A DNA stretch of 64,000 nucleotides. Source: Bradyrhizobium sp. GTDB lineage: Bacteria > Pseudomonadota > Alphaproteobacteria > Rhizobiales > Xanthobacteraceae. The stretch is taken from NCBI GenBank assembly GCA_030681365.1, contig JAUXWH010000223.1, positions 1-64,000 of the forward strand, given 5' to 3'. Of this stretch, positions 54,477 to 64,000 are shown in pieces (the first letter of the stretch is position 1; each line of letters opens with the position of its first letter). The notes beneath the pieces were generated by a model that was not told where the DNA came from, did not search any database, and worked only from the letters and a program-made list of their open reading frames with translations. Both the position numbers and the translations under genes were made by a program.

Positions 54477-55250
54477 CTAACGCTCCACGAAGGCCTTCTC
54501 GATGACGAAGTGGCCGGGCTCGCTGTGGCTACCTTCGAGAAAGCCGCGGGTCTCGAGCATCGCGCGCAGTTCCTCCAGCATGCCCGGGCTGCCGCACATC
54601 ATGATGCGGTCGGTCTCGATGTCGAGCGGCGGCTGATGGATGTCGTTGAACAGCTGCTCCGAAGTGATCAGGTCGGTAATGCGGCCGCGGTTGCGGAACG
54701 GCTCGCGGGTCACGGTCGGATAATAGGAGAGCTTCTCGCTCAACAGCGGCCCGAACAATTCGTCGTCGCGCAGCCTTGCCACCAGCTCTTCGCCATAGGC
54801 GAGTTCGGACACCTGCCGGCAACCATGCACCAGCACGATGCTGTCGAACCGGTCATAGACGTCGGGATCCTTGATCAGGCTCGCGAACGGCGCCAGCCCC
54901 GTTCCGGTCGACAATAGCAGCAGGCGCTTGCCCGGGATCAGATTATCGGAGACCAGCGTGCCGGTCGCCTTGCGCCCGACCAGGATGGTATCGCCTTCCC
55001 TGATCTTCTGCAGCTTCGAGGTCAGCGGCCCATCGGCGACCTTGATCGAGAAGAATTCCAGCGCTTCCTCGTGATTGGCGCTCGCCATCGAATAAGCGCG
55101 CAGCAGCGGACGGCCATCGACCTCAAGCCCGATCATGGCGAACTGGCCATTCTGGAATCGAAAGCCGGAATTGCGGGTGGCGGTGAAGCTGAAAAGCGTA
55201 TCGGTCCAATGCCGGACGGAAAGAACTTTCTCTCGATGGAATGCGCTCAT
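54477..55250 (-). CDS. ferredoxin--NADP+ reductase (Fpr-like)
   Basis: FRFQNGQFAMIGLEVDGRPLLRAYSMASANHEEALEFFSIKVADGPLTSKLQ; STGTGLAPFASLI; C-terminal HFVIEKAFVER. Confidence 0.9.
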   Translation of the reverse strand: MSAFHREKVLSVRHWTDTLFSFTATRNSGFRFQNGQFAMIGLEVDGRPLLRAYSMASANHEEALEFFSIKVADGPLTSKLQKIREGDTILVGRKATGTLVSDNLIPGKRLLLLSTGTGLAPFASLIKDPDVYDRFDSIVLVHGCRQVSELAYGEELVARLRDDELFGPLLSEKLSYYPTVTREPFRNRGRITDLITSEQLFNDIHQPPLDIETDRIMMCGSPGMLEELRAMLETRGFLEGSHSEPGHFVIEKAFVER

Positions 55251-55387
55251 GTGTCCTGATTTTCCGGTTGGTTGGGCGAAGATGGCGCCGTGAAATGCCG
55301 GGCACACTCATCCGGCAAGGAACCACGACGCGCAATCGAGGACTGCAAGCGCCGGTCGATTAGTTTCAAAAAATAGCTGGCGTTCGC

Positions 55388-55404
55388 GGCAACTAATTGC
55401 TGTC
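55388..55404 (+). promoter_or_regulatory. shared motif site S3
   Basis: GGCAACTAATTGCTGTC in the divergent Fpr/DUF971 intergenic region. Confidence 0.6.
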
Positions 55405-55450
55405 GGCCCGGGGCGCGGACTGATGGAATGGGCGCGCCGGAGCAACCGCC

Positions 55451-55780
55451 ATGTCCCAGCCCGCCCTATCCTCGAACCCGTCAGCGGCCGCGCTTGCCGT
55501 CCCAACGCAGGTCAGCATCAGCGAGGACCTGAGCTTTCTCGATCTTGCGATGGCGGACGGCAGCGGGATTCGCCTGACCGCCGAGCGCCTGCGCGGCGCC
55601 TGCAGGTGCGCGCACTGCATCCGGGCACGGATCGACGGGGTTTTCCCGGATCGGTTCGACGGCATCGCCATCGTGCAGGCCGCACCGATCGGTGGTTATG
55701 CGGTCAATCTCGCCTTCTCGGATGGACACGCACGGGGCATTTATCCGTGGGCCCTTCTGCTCGGCCTCGGCGCCGCCTGA
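55451..55780 (+). CDS. DUF971-domain protein
   Basis: LAMADGSGIRLTAERLRGACRCAHCIRARIDGVFPDRFDGIAIVQAAPIGGYAVNLAFSDGHARGIYPWALL. Confidence 0.8.
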   Translation: MSQPALSSNPSAAALAVPTQVSISEDLSFLDLAMADGSGIRLTAERLRGACRCAHCIRARIDGVFPDRFDGIAIVQAAPIGGYAVNLAFSDGHARGIYPWALLLGLGAA

Positions 55781-55903: not shown

Positions 55904-56689
55904 ATGCAAACTTACCCAGCACTCAATGCCGCATCCGGCCCCGGGATGAACATGCCGCGGGCGGCCCCGGCGGCCGGCGGCCAATCCCTGTTGCTGACCG
56001 AGAGCGCGCGATCGCTCGGCGGGGCGCCCTCGCTGTTCGAGACGCTGTCGCCGCGCGATCGCGAAACCGTTCTGCGGCGCGGCCGCCGCAAGGTCCTCAA
56101 CCGCGGCCAGACCTTGTTCAATCAGGGCACCAGGCATGACGGAATTTATCTGATTGAGACCGGGCGGATTCGCGTTTTCTATTCCGCTCCCTCCGGGCGC
56201 GAGATCACGCTGGCCTACTGGCACCCCGGCAATTTCGTCGGCGGTCCGGAAGTGTTCGGCGGCGGCGTGCATCAATGGTCGGGCGTCGCCACCAGCAACA
56301 GCTGCGTCGTGCAGCTTCCCGGCAAGGAGCTACGCGCGCTGGTGACGGAAGTGCCCAACCTCGCGATCGGCCTGATCGAAGGCCTGACGTTCAAGGGCAA
56401 GTGCTACTCGGCGCTGGCGCAGATGCTCGGGACCCGCTCCATCACCGAGCGGCTGGCCCACCTGCTGCTCCACCTCGTCGAACTCTACGGCGTGAAGGAC
56501 GCGGAAGGAATCCTGATCGGCGCGGCTTTCACCCATGCCGACCTCGCCCACATGGTCGGCGCGACGCGCCAATGGGTGACGATCAGCCTCAAACGAATGC
56601 AGGAAAAGGACATCGTGGTTTCGCGCAAATCGCGAATTGTCGTCCGGCGAATTGACCTTCTGAAGGAGATGAAAGGCCTCGGTGACTAA
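55904..56689 (+). CDS. Crp/Fnr family transcriptional regulator (paralogue 2)
   Basis: FNQGTRHDGIYLIETGRIRVFYSAPSGREITLAYWHPGNFVGGPEVF; HTH FTHADLAHMVGATRQWVTISLKRMQEKDIV. Confidence 0.9.
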   Translation: MQTYPALNAASGPGMNMPRAAPAAGGQSLLLTESARSLGGAPSLFETLSPRDRETVLRRGRRKVLNRGQTLFNQGTRHDGIYLIETGRIRVFYSAPSGREITLAYWHPGNFVGGPEVFGGGVHQWSGVATSNSCVVQLPGKELRALVTEVPNLAIGLIEGLTFKGKCYSALAQMLGTRSITERLAHLLLHLVELYGVKDAEGILIGAAFTHADLAHMVGATRQWVTISLKRMQEKDIVVSRKSRIVVRRIDLLKEMKGLGD

Positions 56690-56755
56690 GCGCGTGCCTA
56701 CTGATGCGGCTTCATGCAGCCGAATTGCCCAAGGAGTGGGCACCCGGCCTTTCGC

Positions 56756-56772
56756 GGCAACTAATCGACCGT
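56756..56772 (+). promoter_or_regulatory. shared motif site S4
   Basis: GGCAACTAATCGACCGT; shares TTCGCGGCAACTAAT with S3; upstream of the second ABC operon. Confidence 0.5.
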
Positions 56773-56871
56773 TTGCATGAGACGACGTTTGCTCCCCCGG
56801 CCCGATCGACAAAGGATATCGAAAATAACAGGGGAACACCCGACACGCGTCTCACACCGAAAGGGTCTGCA

Positions 56872-58296
56872 ATGGTTCGCTATTTGGGATTTCGCTACTG
56901 CTCTGTTCTGGGCGCCGCCGCGGCATTGGCTATTGCCAGCCCGGCCGCCGCGCAGACCACGGTAACGATCGGGATCGGTACCCAGGATACCACCACCAAC
57001 ACCGCCACCACGGGCGTCATCATCCGCCAGCTCAAACTGCTGGAAAAGTATCTGCCCAGGGACGGCAAATACGCCAACATCAAGTTCGAATTCGAGTGGC
57101 AGAACTTTACTTCCGGCCCGCCCGTCACCAACGGCATGATGGCGAACAAGCTGCAGTTCGGCGCGATGGGCGATTATCCGCTGGTGGTGAACGGGTTCAC
57201 ATTCGAGAGCAATCCGGAAAGCAAGAGCCGCCTGATCGCGGTCGCAGCCTATAGTCTCGAAGGCTCCGGCAACGGCATGGTCGTGCACAAGGACTCGCCC
57301 TACTACGAACTCTCCGACCTCAAGGGCAAGCTGGTCAGCGTCCCCTTCGGCTCCGCCGCCCACGGCATGGTCCTGAAGGCGATGCAGGACCGGAACTGGC
57401 CGGCCAACTACTTCCAGCTCGTCAGCCAGAGCCCGGAGGTCGGGTCGACCAACCTGCAGGAAAAGAAGATCGACGCCCACGCCGACTTCGTGCCGTTCGC
57501 CGAACTGCTGCCGTTCCGCGGCTTCGCGCGCAAGATCTTCGACGGCGTCGAAACCAACCTGCCGACCTGGCATGGCGTCGTGGTCCGCACCGACTTCGCC
57601 GAGAAATATCCGGAAGTGGTGGTCGCCTATATCAAGGCGATCATCGCCGCCAACGCCTGGCTGCGCGCCGATCCGAAGCTTGCCGCCGAGAAGATCCAGG
57701 AATGGACCGGCATCAACAAGGAAGTGGTGTACATCTTCCTCGGTCCCGGCGGCAACATGACCACCGACCCCACCATCAAGAAGCCGCTGATCGACGCCGC
57801 GGCGGTCGACGTCAAGGTGCTGCAGAATCTCGGCCGCATGAAGGAGTTCGATCCGACGAAATGGGTCGACGACAGCTACATCCGCAAGGCCTATGCCGAG
57901 TTGAAGCTGGACTATGATGCCGAACTCAAGAGCACCAAAAACTACGAAGTCTCCGGCGAGGACAAGTTCTGCAAGAAGCCGATCGGCGATCCGCGCAAGG
58001 CCGGCGAGGTCTGGGTCGATGGCGAAGGCATCTCGCCCTACAGCAGTCCCGCCTGCACGCTTGGCGCCTATGCCGACATCAAGGCCAAGGGCAAGAAGAT
58101 CAACGTCGCCTATGTCTTCGACACCGCACGCGGCATCAAGCTGTTCGCCGACCAGGCCTTCTTCGCGGTGGCCGCCGACAAGAGCGAGATCGCGCCGTTC
58201 CTGCTGAAGAAGGACGCCGAAGCCCACGCGACCAAGATCAAGGGCAAGGTCCTCGGCTTCGAGGACGCACTCAAGACGGTCGTTAGCGGAGGTTGA
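56872..58296 (+). CDS. NrtA/SsuA-like ABC transporter substrate-binding protein
   Basis: Signal peptide; TVTIGIGTQDTTTNTATTGVIIRQLKLLEKYLPRDGKYANIKFEFEWQNFTSGPPVTNGMMANKLQFGAMGDYPLVV. Confidence 0.88.
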   Translation: MVRYLGFRYCSVLGAAAALAIASPAAAQTTVTIGIGTQDTTTNTATTGVIIRQLKLLEKYLPRDGKYANIKFEFEWQNFTSGPPVTNGMMANKLQFGAMGDYPLVVNGFTFESNPESKSRLIAVAAYSLEGSGNGMVVHKDSPYYELSDLKGKLVSVPFGSAAHGMVLKAMQDRNWPANYFQLVSQSPEVGSTNLQEKKIDAHADFVPFAELLPFRGFARKIFDGVETNLPTWHGVVVRTDFAEKYPEVVVAYIKAIIAANAWLRADPKLAAEKIQEWTGINKEVVYIFLGPGGNMTTDPTIKKPLIDAAAVDVKVLQNLGRMKEFDPTKWVDDSYIRKAYAELKLDYDAELKSTKNYEVSGEDKFCKKPIGDPRKAGEVWVDGEGISPYSSPACTLGAYADIKAKGKKINVAYVFDTARGIKLFADQAFFAVAADKSEIAPFLLKKDAEAHATKIKGKVLGFEDALKTVVSGG

Positions 58297-59210
58297 ACGT
58301 GGAGAGCATCGCCTTGCGACGCGAACAGCAAACTGCGGCCGAGCCGGCGACCGGCGCTGAACCGTCCTACGCCCCGACGGTTCAGTCGCAGGGCGGCGCG
58401 CCGCCGCAGTTCGCGCTCTATCTCAGGCGCTGGCTGGCGCTGAACCGCAGCGGGCTGCGCGCCGTGCTGATCGGCGCCATCTCGCTGGCGCTGTTCCTGC
58501 TGGCCTGGCATCTGCTGACGGAGTATCGCGTCGTCTTCTTCGTCCGCTTCACCAACGTGCCGTCGCCTTCGGCGGTCTACGAAAGCCTGACGCGGGCGAT
58601 GCATGATTCGACGTTCTTCATGCATGTGATCCTGAGCTGCCGTCGCATCCTGTTCGGCTTTTCGCTGGCCGCCCTGATCGCGGTTCCGCTCGGGCTGGTG
58701 ATGGGTCGATTCAGGCTCGCTCACGAGATCCTGTTTCCTATCACGGAAGTGCTGCGCCCGATCCCTGCCATCGCCTGGGTGCCGATGGCCATCATGTTGT
58801 GGCCGACCAACGAGCAGAGCATCATCTACATCACGTTTCTTGGATCGTTCTTTCCGATCCTCGTCAACACGCTGCACGGGATGTCCCTGGTCGACCCGGT
58901 GCTGGTGCGTGCCGCCCAGTGTCTCGGCGCCCGCGAGATGTCGATCTTTCGCGAGGTCTACTTCCCGGCCTCCCTGCCGCACATCTTCACCGGCCTGACG
59001 GTCGGCATGGGCGTCGCCTGGGTATCGCTGATCGCCGCCGAGATGATCTCCGGCCAGTTCGGTATCGGCTACTTTACCTGGGAGGCCTACTCGCTGGTCC
59101 AGTACGCCGATATCGCGCTCGGAATGATCTGCATCGGCGTGCTCGGCCTCGGATCGAGTGCGTTGATCCGGGGATTTGGCCGCCTCGTCATGCCCTGGAG
59201 CCGAACATGA
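58293..59210 (+). CDS. ABC transporter permease (SsuC/TauC-like)
   Basis: ITEVLRPIPAIAWVPMAIMLWPTNEQSIIYITFLGSFFPILVNTLHG; AAQCLGAREMSIFREVYFPASLPHIFTGLTVGMGVAW. Confidence 0.9.
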   Translation: MNVESIALRREQQTAAEPATGAEPSYAPTVQSQGGAPPQFALYLRRWLALNRSGLRAVLIGAISLALFLLAWHLLTEYRVVFFVRFTNVPSPSAVYESLTRAMHDSTFFMHVILSCRRILFGFSLAALIAVPLGLVMGRFRLAHEILFPITEVLRPIPAIAWVPMAIMLWPTNEQSIIYITFLGSFFPILVNTLHGMSLVDPVLVRAAQCLGAREMSIFREVYFPASLPHIFTGLTVGMGVAWVSLIAAEMISGQFGIGYFTWEAYSLVQYADIALGMICIGVLGLGSSALIRGFGRLVMPWSRT

Positions 59211-60082
59211 GCGTCATGACTCCCGATCCGCCTTCGAAGGGCCGCATCGACGTCGACAATTTCGCCCTGAGCTACGACACGCTCGAGGGTCCAGTCGAGG
59301 CGGTTTGCAACGCCTCGATCCACGTCAATCCCGGAGAGTTCGTCTCGATCGTCGGGCCGTCCGGCTGCGGGAAATCAACCCTGCTCAACGCGGTCGCGGG
59401 CTTTCTCAAGCCTACCAAAGGCGGCGTCACCGTCGATGGCGAAGCCGTCGATGGACCCGGCGCCGATCGCGGCATGGTGTTCCAGCAATACTCGCTGTTT
59501 CCCTGGAAGACGGTGAAGGGCAACGTCGAATTCGGCCTGAAGATGAAGCACCTCGACAAGTCCAGCCGCGACCGCGCCGCGCGCACGCTGCTGGGGCTGG
59601 CCGGCCTGACCGCCTTCGAGAACAAGTATCCGGACAGCCTGTCCGGCGGCATGAAACAGCGCGTCGGCATCGTTCGGGCGCTGGCCACCGGCCCCAAGGT
59701 GCTGCTGCTCGACGAACCCTTCGGCGCGCTCGATGCCCAGACCCGGGTCATCATGCAGCAAATCCTCACCAACATGTGGCAGCGGCTGAAGATCTCGGTG
59801 CTGTTCGTCACCCACGATATCGACGAAGCCATCTTCCTGTCCGACCGCGTCTATTGCATGACCGCGCGTCCCGGCGCCATCAAGGCCGAGATCACCATCC
59901 CGCTGGAACGGCCCCGGCACCAGTCGATGATGATGTCATCGGAATTTCTCGGGCTGCGCCGCGGACTGATGTCCTTGATCCGGGAGGAAAGCATCAAGGC
60001 GATGGGCGGCGAGCTGAACGACCTGGCGCTCGACGGCCTGAGCATCGACCTGCACGGACAATCGCTCGCCGACGTGCTTTGA
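59207..60082 (+). CDS. ABC transporter ATP-binding protein (SsuB/TauB-like)
   Basis: MSVMTPDPPSKGRIDVDNFALSY...; GPSGCGKST, LSGGMKQRVGIVRAL, LLLDEPFGALD; ATGA overlap with the permease. Confidence 0.92.
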   Translation: MSVMTPDPPSKGRIDVDNFALSYDTLEGPVEAVCNASIHVNPGEFVSIVGPSGCGKSTLLNAVAGFLKPTKGGVTVDGEAVDGPGADRGMVFQQYSLFPWKTVKGNVEFGLKMKHLDKSSRDRAARTLLGLAGLTAFENKYPDSLSGGMKQRVGIVRALATGPKVLLLDEPFGALDAQTRVIMQQILTNMWQRLKISVLFVTHDIDEAIFLSDRVYCMTARPGAIKAEITIPLERPRHQSMMMSSEFLGLRRGLMSLIREESIKAMGGELNDLALDGLSIDLHGQSLADVL

Positions 60083-60122: not shown

Positions 60123-61133
60123 TCAGGCCCGCTTTCCCTTGCCTCTGACCGAGGTCAGAAGCGCCTTGTCGAGTTCGATGCGTTTCTCGAGAAATGCCGT
60201 CACGGCCTTGATGCGCGCGATGTGCAGCAGGTCTTCGTGCACGGAAAGCCAGATGTCTCGCATGGAGAACAGCTCCGGCATCACCGGCCGCAGGTCCCTA
60301 TCGTTCGCCGCGACATAGGACGGCAGCATGGCGATACCCTGCCCGCCCGCGACCGCGATGTACTGCGCGACCAGGCTGGTGCTGCGAAAGACGGTGTGCG
60401 TGGGGCGCAGGATGTCGGAGAGCCAGCGGTTCTCCTTGCTGTAGATATGATCCTCGATGAAATCGATGAAGGCGTGGTTCTCGAGTTCCTTCAGCGTCTT
60501 CGGACAGGGACGGTCGTCGAAATAGGTGCTCGAGCTGTAGAGCGATATCTTGAACTCGCCGAGTTTCTTGACCGACAACCGTTTGCCCTGCGGCCGGAAA
60601 AAGCTGACGAAGATGTCCGCCTCGCGCCGGCTGAGGTCGAGCAGCCGCGTATCCGTGATCAGTTCGATCTGGATCGACGGATAGATCTTGTTGAAATCGC
60701 CGATGCATTTGGTGAGGTAGAAGCTTCCGATCCCCTCCATCGCGGCGATGCGCACCGCGCCGCCGGCATCCGCCTGCTCGATCCCGATGGCTTCCACCAT
60801 GGAGTTGGCCTGGCTCTCCATGCCCTCGGCATATTGCAGCAGGCGCAGCCCGATTTCGGTCAGGGCGAAGCCGGATTTGCTGCGCTTGAACAGCGTGGAA
60901 TTCAGGCTGCGTTCCAGTTCACGGATCCGCCGGCTCACGGTGGTATGATCGACCTTGAGCTTCTCGGCGGCGCGAACGAGGTTGCGCTGACGCGCCACTT
61001 CAAGGAAGTAGACGACGTCGTTCCAGTCGTAGCGGAGCTTGCGCTGTGGCTTGGCCACTCCCTTGACGATCCTTCGCGGCTGCCGGCGGCTCAAGCCGCC
61101 GGCTTTCGAATCGCGATCGAGCAGCACTCCCAT
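60123..61133 (-). CDS. LysR-family transcriptional regulator
   Basis: DVVYFLEVARQRNLVRAAEKLKVDHTTVSRRIRELERSLNSTLFKRSKSGFALTEIG. Confidence 0.9.
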   Translation of the reverse strand: MGVLLDRDSKAGGLSRRQPRRIVKGVAKPQRKLRYDWNDVVYFLEVARQRNLVRAAEKLKVDHTTVSRRIRELERSLNSTLFKRSKSGFALTEIGLRLLQYAEGMESQANSMVEAIGIEQADAGGAVRIAAMEGIGSFYLTKCIGDFNKIYPSIQIELITDTRLLDLSRREADIFVSFFRPQGKRLSVKKLGEFKISLYSSSTYFDDRPCPKTLKELENHAFIDFIEDHIYSKENRWLSDILRPTHTVFRSTSLVAQYIAVAGGQGIAMLPSYVAANDRDLRPVMPELFSMRDIWLSVHEDLLHIARIKAVTAFLEKRIELDKALLTSVRGKGKRA

Positions 61134-61144
61134 TTCGGGTTCGG

Positions 61145-62824
61145 CTAGGCCGCGACGATCGGAGCGTATGTCTCAACCAGCCGGTTTGCAAACATGTCGA
61201 CCTTCGGAATCATCAGCTTCTGGCGGCAGACCGCCAGATCGATGTGCTTGGGCATCACAGCCCCGAGTTTCAGCACCCGCGGCGCCGCGACGTTGATATC
61301 CCATTGCGGGAAGCCGTTCGGCGGAATGACGACGCTGCCGCCCGGATAGGGGCAGTCGGTGCGGTTGGCCAGCACGACCGCTACCCGGTTGTCCTCGGCG
61401 CGCGGCACCGCCAGTAACTCGCGTTCGAACGGCTCGCGCAGCGCGGCGGGCCACAGGATGATGTCGGCGCCGCCGATGGCGAGACAGCGCGAGGTTTCCG
61501 GAAACACCGCGTCATAGCCCGACATCACGCCGATGCGGCCGAACGGGGTGTCGAACACCGGGTAGTCGAAGCCGGCGACCGCCCATTTTCGTTCCTCCGC
61601 GGTCAGATGGGTCTTGCGATAGCGGCCGATCTCCTTGCCGTCCGGCCCGACCAGCACCGTCGTGACATAGAGCCCGGCCGCCGCCCGTTCGACAACAGGG
61701 GCGGCGATCAGGCAGCCATACTTCGCCGCGATGGCCGCGATGGCGGACAGGTTCGACGCGGACTGATCGGCAAGCGCGGCCGCTTCCTTGGCGTTGAGGA
61801 TGCACTCCGGAAAGAACGCATATTCCGGCAGCACCAGAACCTTCACGCCCAGCTTTGCCGTATGGTCGACCATGGCGAGCACATCGGCGAGATCGGTCTC
61901 ACCGGTGACGTGCATCTGCACGGCCGCGACCTTGGTCACGGATTTCGACGGGATCAGCGGCTTGTCGGCGACACCGAATACCGGCGTCTTCTCATAGGGC
62001 AGCGCCATGATCCCGTAGGTTTCCGGCCGGCGGTCGGCGATCTTGTCGTTGGCGGCATAGATCGACTTGTCGGCGGCGGCGTCGAGATCGATGTCGGCGA
62101 TCGACATGCCATGGGTGTCGTAGGGCACCTTCGACAGCACCCTGCCCTTCGGGTCGACGATCATGCTGCCGCCCGGATAATAGATCGAGCGCTCATAGCC
62201 GGCCTTGGTAGCGGCGACCAGCCACACGCCGTTCTCGTAAGCACGCGCCGGGCCCCACATGTCGGCCTGATCCATCGCGAAGAAATTCGCCATGTCGACG
62301 ATCACCTCGGCGCCCTGCATCGCCATGGCGCGGAAGATTTCCGGAATCCGGCCGTCGAAACAGATCAGCAGACCGATGCGGCCGAGATCGGTGTCGACCA
62401 CAGGGCATCCGCGTTCGCCGAAGCTGAACCAGTTCTGGTCGTGGGTGGCCAGGAACTGTTTGTGATAGTGGCAGGCGAGTTTTCCGCTGCGGTCGAACAT
62501 GATCCCGCTGTTGAAGATCTTCTCCCTGGCCGGATCCCATTCGGTGATGCCGCTGGCGATATAGACGCCGTGCTTGCGGCTCAATTCCGAAAGCGCGGTG
62601 ACGAACGGCCCGTCGGTCACGGTTTCCGCGAGTTCACGGCAATGGTCAGCCGAATCGAACAGGTAGCCGGTATCCATGCATTCCGGGAACACGATCAGCT
62701 CGGCGCCCTGCCGCACAGCGGCCTCGACGTAGTGCGTGGCCAGCTCGATGTTGTAGTCGAAATCTCCAAGCCGGGCGAGTGTCTGCACCGCGGCGGCGCG
62801 AAAACGGCGCTTCGTCATATCCAT
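61145..62824 (-). CDS. tandem two-domain carbon-nitrogen hydrolase (nitrilase superfamily)
   Basis: Domain 1: PECMDTGY / YHKQFLA / GLLICFDGRIPE (Glu-Lys-Cys). Domain 2: PEYAFFPE / YRKTHLT / GVMSGYDAVFPE (Cys position is Gly). Confidence 0.9.
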   Translation of the reverse strand: MDMTKRRFRAAAVQTLARLGDFDYNIELATHYVEAAVRQGAELIVFPECMDTGYLFDSADHCRELAETVTDGPFVTALSELSRKHGVYIASGITEWDPAREKIFNSGIMFDRSGKLACHYHKQFLATHDQNWFSFGERGCPVVDTDLGRIGLLICFDGRIPEIFRAMAMQGAEVIVDMANFFAMDQADMWGPARAYENGVWLVAATKAGYERSIYYPGGSMIVDPKGRVLSKVPYDTHGMSIADIDLDAAADKSIYAANDKIADRRPETYGIMALPYEKTPVFGVADKPLIPSKSVTKVAAVQMHVTGETDLADVLAMVDHTAKLGVKVLVLPEYAFFPECILNAKEAAALADQSASNLSAIAAIAAKYGCLIAAPVVERAAAGLYVTTVLVGPDGKEIGRYRKTHLTAEERKWAVAGFDYPVFDTPFGRIGVMSGYDAVFPETSRCLAIGGADIILWPAALREPFERELLAVPRAEDNRVAVVLANRTDCPYPGGSVVIPPNGFPQWDINVAAPRVLKLGAVMPKHIDLAVCRQKLMIPKVDMFANRLVETYAPIVAA

Positions 62825-62898: not shown

Positions 62899-63738
62899 TC
62901 ACTTCTTGACCTCCTGCCAGAAGCGATCGAGGCAATGGCGCTTGAGCGCCATGAAGCGGTCCCCGGTGGTGACTTCGAGATTGCGTGGCCAGGGCAGGTC
63001 GATGTCGACGATCTCTGCGACCTTGGTTGGCCGTCGCGTCAGCAGCACCACCTTGTCGGCCAGTTCGATCGCTTCATCGAGATCGTGCGAAACCAGCAGC
63101 ATGGTGGTCTTCGTCTTCATGAAGATCTTCTGCAGCTGTTCGCGCATGAACATCGTCATTTCGTAGTCGAGCGCCGAGAACGGCTCGTCCAGGAACAAGA
63201 CCTCGGGCTCCGTTACCAGCGCACGCAGGATCGAAACCGCCTGCTGCTGACCCCCCGACAGTGTATAGGGATAGGCGTCGAGATCGATGCGTATCTCGAA
63301 ATCGGCGAGCAGCTTTTCCACGCGGTCGCGGCGCTCCTTGCGGGGGATGCCCATGACCTTCAGTGGATAATGGATATTGTCGATCGCCTTCAACCAGGGG
63401 AACAATGCCTCGCGGTAGTTCTGGAAGACGTAGGAAATCCGCGTCTCGCTGATCCGCTGGCCATCGTAAAGGACTTCGCCGGCGTCCATCGGCATCAGGC
63501 CGGAGACCAGATTGATCAACGTGCTCTTGCCGCATCCGTTTGGCCCGAAGATCGAAATGAACTGCCCAAGCGGCAGGTCGACGGCGAAGTCGTCATAGAC
63601 CACGGCGTCGTTGAAGGTCTTGCGCAGGCCGCGGATGGTCATCAGGGCCTGCCGCTTCGCCTTCGGCGCGGCCGCCTGCGACGCCTCTCCCGCGCCAGCC
63701 TGCATGGGCCTGATCGGCGCGACGTTGCTTTTGACCAT
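62899..63738 (-). CDS. ABC transporter ATP-binding protein (NitT/TauT-type)
   Basis: FGPNGCGKSTLINLVSGLMP; LSGGQQQAVSILRALV; LFLDEPFSALD. Confidence 0.9.
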   Translation of the reverse strand: MVKSNVAPIRPMQAGAGEASQAAAPKAKRQALMTIRGLRKTFNDAVVYDDFAVDLPLGQFISIFGPNGCGKSTLINLVSGLMPMDAGEVLYDGQRISETRISYVFQNYREALFPWLKAIDNIHYPLKVMGIPRKERRDRVEKLLADFEIRIDLDAYPYTLSGGQQQAVSILRALVTEPEVLFLDEPFSALDYEMTMFMREQLQKIFMKTKTTMLLVSHDLDEAIELADKVVLLTRRPTKVAEIVDIDLPWPRNLEVTTGDRFMALKRHCLDRFWQEVKK

Positions 63739-63740
63739 CT

Positions 63741-64000
63741 TCAGGTTCCGAGCTCGGCCTTGGTCAGCAGCTTGTCGCGCACGTTCAGCGGCCCGGCCAG
63801 CACGCCCTCCTTGATGAAGATGTCGACCAGCGCCTGATACGACTTGATATCGGTATCGTTGAGATCCTTGAACCCGCGCAGATAAGGCTCGGCCAGCAAT
63901 TCGAGCTGATCCGGCTTGATCGGCGTGTATTTCGGAATCGCGGCCTTGTACTTGGCGAAGTCCGCGTTGACGAGGTCGGTTGCCTGATCGATCACCGCAA
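63741..64000 (-). CDS. ABC transporter substrate-binding protein, C-terminal part (continues beyond window)
   Basis: ...LELLAEPYLRGFKDLNDTDIKSYQALVDIFIKEGVLAGPLNVRDKLLTKAELGT; directly upstream of the ATPase gene. Confidence 0.7.
   Translation of the reverse strand, partial: AVIDQATDLVNADFAKYKAAIPKYTPIKPDQLELLAEPYLRGFKDLNDTDIKSYQALVDIFIKEGVLAGPLNVRDKLLTKAELGT

Follow-up and report, generated by a model that had tools for sequence, protein, structure and literature searches.

A tandem nitrilase-superfamily protein with one intact and one cysteine-less domain, encoded beside an ABC importer in Bradyrhizobium sp.

The nitrilase fold, its triad chemistry and the concept of the pseudoenzyme are already known. 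Nitrilase-superfamily fusions such as NitFhit and glutamine-dependent NAD synthetase join a nitrilase-fold domain to a second domain of a different fold, whereas the protein described here, which is encoded in a 64,000-nucleotide stretch of Bradyrhizobium sp. DNA (contig JAUXWH010000223.1; hereafter the window), has a second nitrilase domain as its partner. The amidase/nitrilase enzymes of Pyrococcus (PH0642, PDB 6ypa, 7ovg and 1j31; P. abyssi nitrilase, 3ivz) are the best match in both sequence and fold to the first domain (D1), whose fold and triad they share, and are also the best sequence match to the second domain (D2). However, the Pyrococcus enzymes are single-domain chains with a cysteine, whereas the window's protein comprises two fused domains, one of which lacks this residue. 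According to a 2016 paper (PMC4700190), an underlying dimer is present in all known functional members of the superfamily. In the papers searched, a set to which most subscription journals do not belong, we found no description, and no enzyme assay, of a tandem nitrilase that carries a dead domain and is accompanied by a dedicated importer.

Two described types of gene neighborhood also resemble those of the tandem genes, which fall into a sub-family A, to which the window's gene belongs, and a sub-family B. Genes for AtzF and BiuH-like proteins of the biuret-allophanate pathway adjoin some sub-family A operons, but are not located beside the window's gene. Short-chain amide operons that are regulated by AmiC/AmiR and carry a Urt-type transporter house the sub-family B genes, whereas in sub-family A operons the importer is of the SsuA/NMT1 type and regulation is by LysR or sigma-54 proteins.

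The open reading frame initially annotated as a tandem nitrilase (Table 1) indeed encodes two such domains, as evident by the fact that each half separately matches Pfam CN_hydrolase (PF00795; cut-off 23.2 bits), with scores of 195.3 bits for D1 alone and 98.3 bits for D2 alone. A GGAG sequence lies directly against the first ATG and ~6 nucleotides ahead of the second (residue 3), and this second position is the start used by most relatives. Given this spacing and usage, translation probably begins at the second ATG. D1 carries the full Glu-Lys-Cys triad that had been noted (E48, K122 and C155) within the motifs PECMD (residue 47), HKQF (121) and ICFDGRIPE (154), and in the D1 alignment C155 lines up with its counterpart in ICFDWFFPE, from the family of PDB 7ovg. 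D1 is a putative hydrolase that would act on the C-N bond of a nitrile, an amide or a carbamoyl compound. D2 retains the glutamate (E334, in PEYAFF at residue 333) and the lysine (K404, in RKTHL at 403), but the motif at residue 432 reads GVMSGYDAVFPE, such that glycine replaces the cysteine as previously stated. When PDB 7ovg is aligned to D2, G436 falls exactly on the A of GVMIAFDWFFPE.

Table 1. Coordinates of the tandem nitrilase gene, its domains and key codons, and the adjacent genes in the window.
Feature	Position	Strand	Remarks
Tandem CN_hydrolase (nitrilase-superfamily) protein	61145..62824	-	559 aa, or 557 aa from likelier start 62818
Domain 1 (D1), residues 1-285	61970..62824	-	E48-K122-D129-C155 intact
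Domain 2 (D2), residues 291-559, putative pseudo-nitrilase	61148..61954	-	
Codon TGT for C155, predicted D1 nucleophile	62360..62362	-	Cys in 70/70 aligned
Codon GGC for G436, lost nucleophile position of D2	61517..61519	-	No Cys among 70 aligned (Gly in 66, Asp in 4)
ABC transporter ATPase	62899..63738	-	74 bp upstream of nitrilase ORF
NMT1/SsuA-like substrate-binding protein, 3' end	63741..64000	-	Rest and permease beyond window edge, seen in locus L077
LysR-family regulator	60123..61133	-	11 bp downstream of nitrilase ORF

A genome scan revealed relatives at 53 loci in Alpha-, Beta- and Gammaproteobacteria, Cyanobacteria and Actinomycetota. Full-length members of sub-family A are 54-96% identical, and the second set of tandem relatives, sub-family B, which was drawn from the same order, is ~33% identical. 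In an alignment of 70 sequences (57 from sub-family A, partial ones included, and 13 from sub-family B), the D1 triad is invariant: the glutamate is found in 69 of the 69 sequences in which the residue is present, and the lysine and cysteine in all 70. Position 436 of D2 is never cysteine, and the two sub-families have no conserved cysteine in common elsewhere in D2. The same rule, an intact D1 and a D2 lacking its cysteine, holds for three further tandems and for four plasmid-borne relatives, the latter from Klebsiella, Rhizobium and Agrobacterium. The presence of cysteine-less D2 domains in these relatives rules out a sequencing error or a strain peculiarity at G436, one of the two ways in which the original claim might have failed; the other, a different nearby cysteine serving as the D2 nucleophile, also found no support in the alignment. 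When plasmid records were searched at E 1e-30, 117 carried at least one tandem relative.

Although it lacks the nucleophile, D2 is constrained. Pairwise dN/dS values (NG86, eight comparisons) range from 0.05 to 0.13 for D1 and from 0.06 to 0.23 for D2, and D2 is under purifying selection. Moreover, every strong match, across several phyla, still carries D2 fused to D1. With its fold kept, its nucleophile lost and its sequence constrained, D2 is best read as a pseudoenzyme. A quick tree groups the D2 domains of the two sub-families (SH-aLRT 95), although the program warns that this grouping joins long branches. Because sub-families that are only ~33% identical both have the same arrangement, and because their D2 domains group, the simplest reading is that the cysteine was probably lost in an ancestor that predates the split between the sub-families.

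Modeling of the tandem protein with AlphaFold, as had been recommended, yields one confident unit with a mean pLDDT of 92.3 and a pTM of 0.92, the latter implying that D1 and D2 are confidently placed relative to each other. The best fold matches in the PDB are the single-domain Pyrococcus amidase/nitrilase structures (TMt 0.94-0.96), and D1 and D2 may pack across the dimer face as an intramolecular pseudo-dimer. The constant D1 triad, the consistent absence of the D2 cysteine, the purifying selection on D2 and this confident model together give good support to the initial proposal that the gene encodes a fused active and pseudo-nitrilase.

The pattern of conservation within D2 offers a means to evaluate what such a domain might do. 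Among 31 sub-family A sequences remaining after thinning at 90% identity, the columns of D1 have a mean conservation of 0.79 and those of D2 a mean of 0.69. The catalytic columns of D2 (E334, K404 and the second acid, E411) score 0.55-0.58 and are among its more variable positions, while residues 465-481, which we take to be the helix at the nitrilase dimer face, and the C-terminal tail (residues 538-553) reach 0.82-0.83. Since the catalytic columns vary and the helix and tail are conserved, a role as structural partner fits better than regulation.

The suggestion made at the outset that D2 could be regulatory or bind a ligand is thus not favored. If it were correct, the emptied E-K pocket would bind substrate or product and thereby regulate D1, and it is true that the small glycine in place of the cysteine leaves a pocket, and that sub-family B and most members of the window's clade retain both E334 and K404 (overall, E in 53 and K in 51 of the 70 aligned sequences). 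However, in betaproteobacterial, cyanobacterial and actinobacterial members both residues are mostly Q or L (E334 is exchanged for Q or L, and K404 for Q), and the second-acid position varies as well, even though the operon is of the same type; all three columns also lie under the D2 mean. We consider a ligand-binding or allosteric D2 to be rather unlikely, and its more specific form, wherein the live domain is gated by the dead one, acting as an allosteric sensor of the nitrogen compound that the importer brings in, to be slightly less likely again. In the alphaproteobacterial clade to which the window's gene belongs, most members retain E and K, and there D2 may nevertheless bind a ligand.

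Even less probable are readings in which D2 has no function or retains catalysis. Conservation below that of D1 would be expected of a decaying duplicate, but the low dN/dS values and the persistence of the fusion in every strong match make this quite improbable. Marginally more improbable still is a bifunctional enzyme whose D2 conducts a cysteine-independent reaction with its remaining Glu and Lys: E-K-E is kept in most window-like relatives, but not throughout the family although the operon is, and D1 by itself suffices for a hydrolase. Hydrolysis by D2 through another nucleophile is the hardest to credit. S435 sits beside G436 in 36 of the 57 sub-family A sequences and C371 is found in 52 of them, but position 435 is elsewhere L, M, A, I, V or N, and C371 is missing from sub-family B.

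The neighboring genes provide clues regarding substrate. A permease, a binding protein and an ATPase adjoin the tandem gene in all 51 loci with enough flanking sequence, and the adjacent LysR gene is kept in most alphaproteobacterial relatives. An apparent permease-binding protein fusion was rejected as a mechanical artefact, as Pfam finds only the binding protein in the 576-aa ORF and the permease has an ORF of its own that overlaps it. Allophanate hydrolase genes that score above the TIGR02713 cut-off adjoin the operon, on different sides, in loci L045, L051, L057 and L073, and one is near in L076. Urea carboxylase is ~1,200 aa in size, and no ORF of this length occurs at the allophanate hydrolase loci, where the longest is 924 aa. 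Nitrile hydratase and BiuH-like isochorismatase genes, the latter scoring under the BiuH cut-off, accompany the tandem gene in Burkholderiaceae, cyanobacteria and one Klebsiella plasmid (L071, L072, L074 and L076, the cyanobacterial L065 and L066, and the plasmid). Most window-like loci have neither allophanate hydrolase nor nitrile hydratase as neighbors.

For sub-family B, 7 of the 11 contexts fetched have a common gene set that includes a Urt-type transporter and a formamidase (identified in L083); an AmiC-like binding protein is encoded in L083 and an ANTAR gene is present in L082. Plasmid copies from Klebsiella, Rhizobium and Agrobacterium lie in the same kind of operon, and on Klebsiella plasmid NZ_CP056683.1 (L131) a sub-family B tandem gene resides within an amide-type operon. 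Another Klebsiella plasmid, NZ_CP056225.1 (L130), carries an island composed of a regulator, an importer, the tandem nitrilase, a second importer, nitrile hydratase and the BiuH-like hydrolase; thus on this plasmid a second ABC transporter accompanies the latter two genes. Transposase and recombinase genes flank the island, which suggests that it is mobile.

Several other features of the window's surroundings were recorded. Converging on the nitrilase operon are the genes of a second SsuA/TauC-type ABC transporter (56704-60082, + strand), which consists of a binding protein, a permease and an ATPase; the C-terminal part of this binding protein weakly matches NosL (16.9 bits, below the cut-off of 24). 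Upstream of this transporter is a Crp/Fnr-family regulator (55904-56689, + strand), and the region 54477-55780 encodes a small protein with a GBBH-like N-terminal domain beside a divergent ferredoxin-reductase-like ORF. Control of the operon by a guanidine (ykkC) riboswitch was rejected, since no such Rfam match occurs in 16 loci. The only riboswitch detected there is a TPP element (70.9 bits) at 15236-15369 of L077, equivalent to approximately 70,235-70,368 in window numbering, just past the window.

The protein family itself gives no reading of the substrate because scores fall far under the cut-off of every NCBIfam equivalog considered (archaeal-type nitrilase, N-carbamoylputrescine amidase, formamidase and others): the best is 252.8 against 500 (nitrile_Arch), the next is 191.4 against 410.25, and others are lower. 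From the neighboring genes, we infer that the substrate class is a small amide, ureide or nitrile. The repeated neighbors, namely allophanate hydrolase without an ORF of urea carboxylase length, and nitrile hydratase with a BiuH-like hydrolase, hint at a compound of the N-carbamoyl or cyano-urea type; biuret or cyano-urea as the actual substrate is only a lead.

We assign a probability of roughly two in three to the reading that D1 obtains nitrogen by hydrolyzing an imported small amide, ureide or nitrile, and that D2 is a pseudoenzyme that replaces the second subunit of the nitrilase dimer. By this mechanism, the periplasmic binding protein, permease and ATPase would import the compound, and D1 would hydrolyze it by Glu-Lys-Cys thioester chemistry to yield ammonia. 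D2 would have arisen by duplication of a nitrilase domain, followed by loss of its cysteine before the sub-families split, and would persist as a covalently attached dimer partner. A single chain with one live and one dead site would thereby take the place of a homodimer.

The tandem gene marks a recurrent, sometimes plasmid-borne operon for nitrogen acquisition. Since members of the superfamily are described as dimer-based, a live domain conserved in fusion with a dead one would be a natural test of the role of the second subunit.
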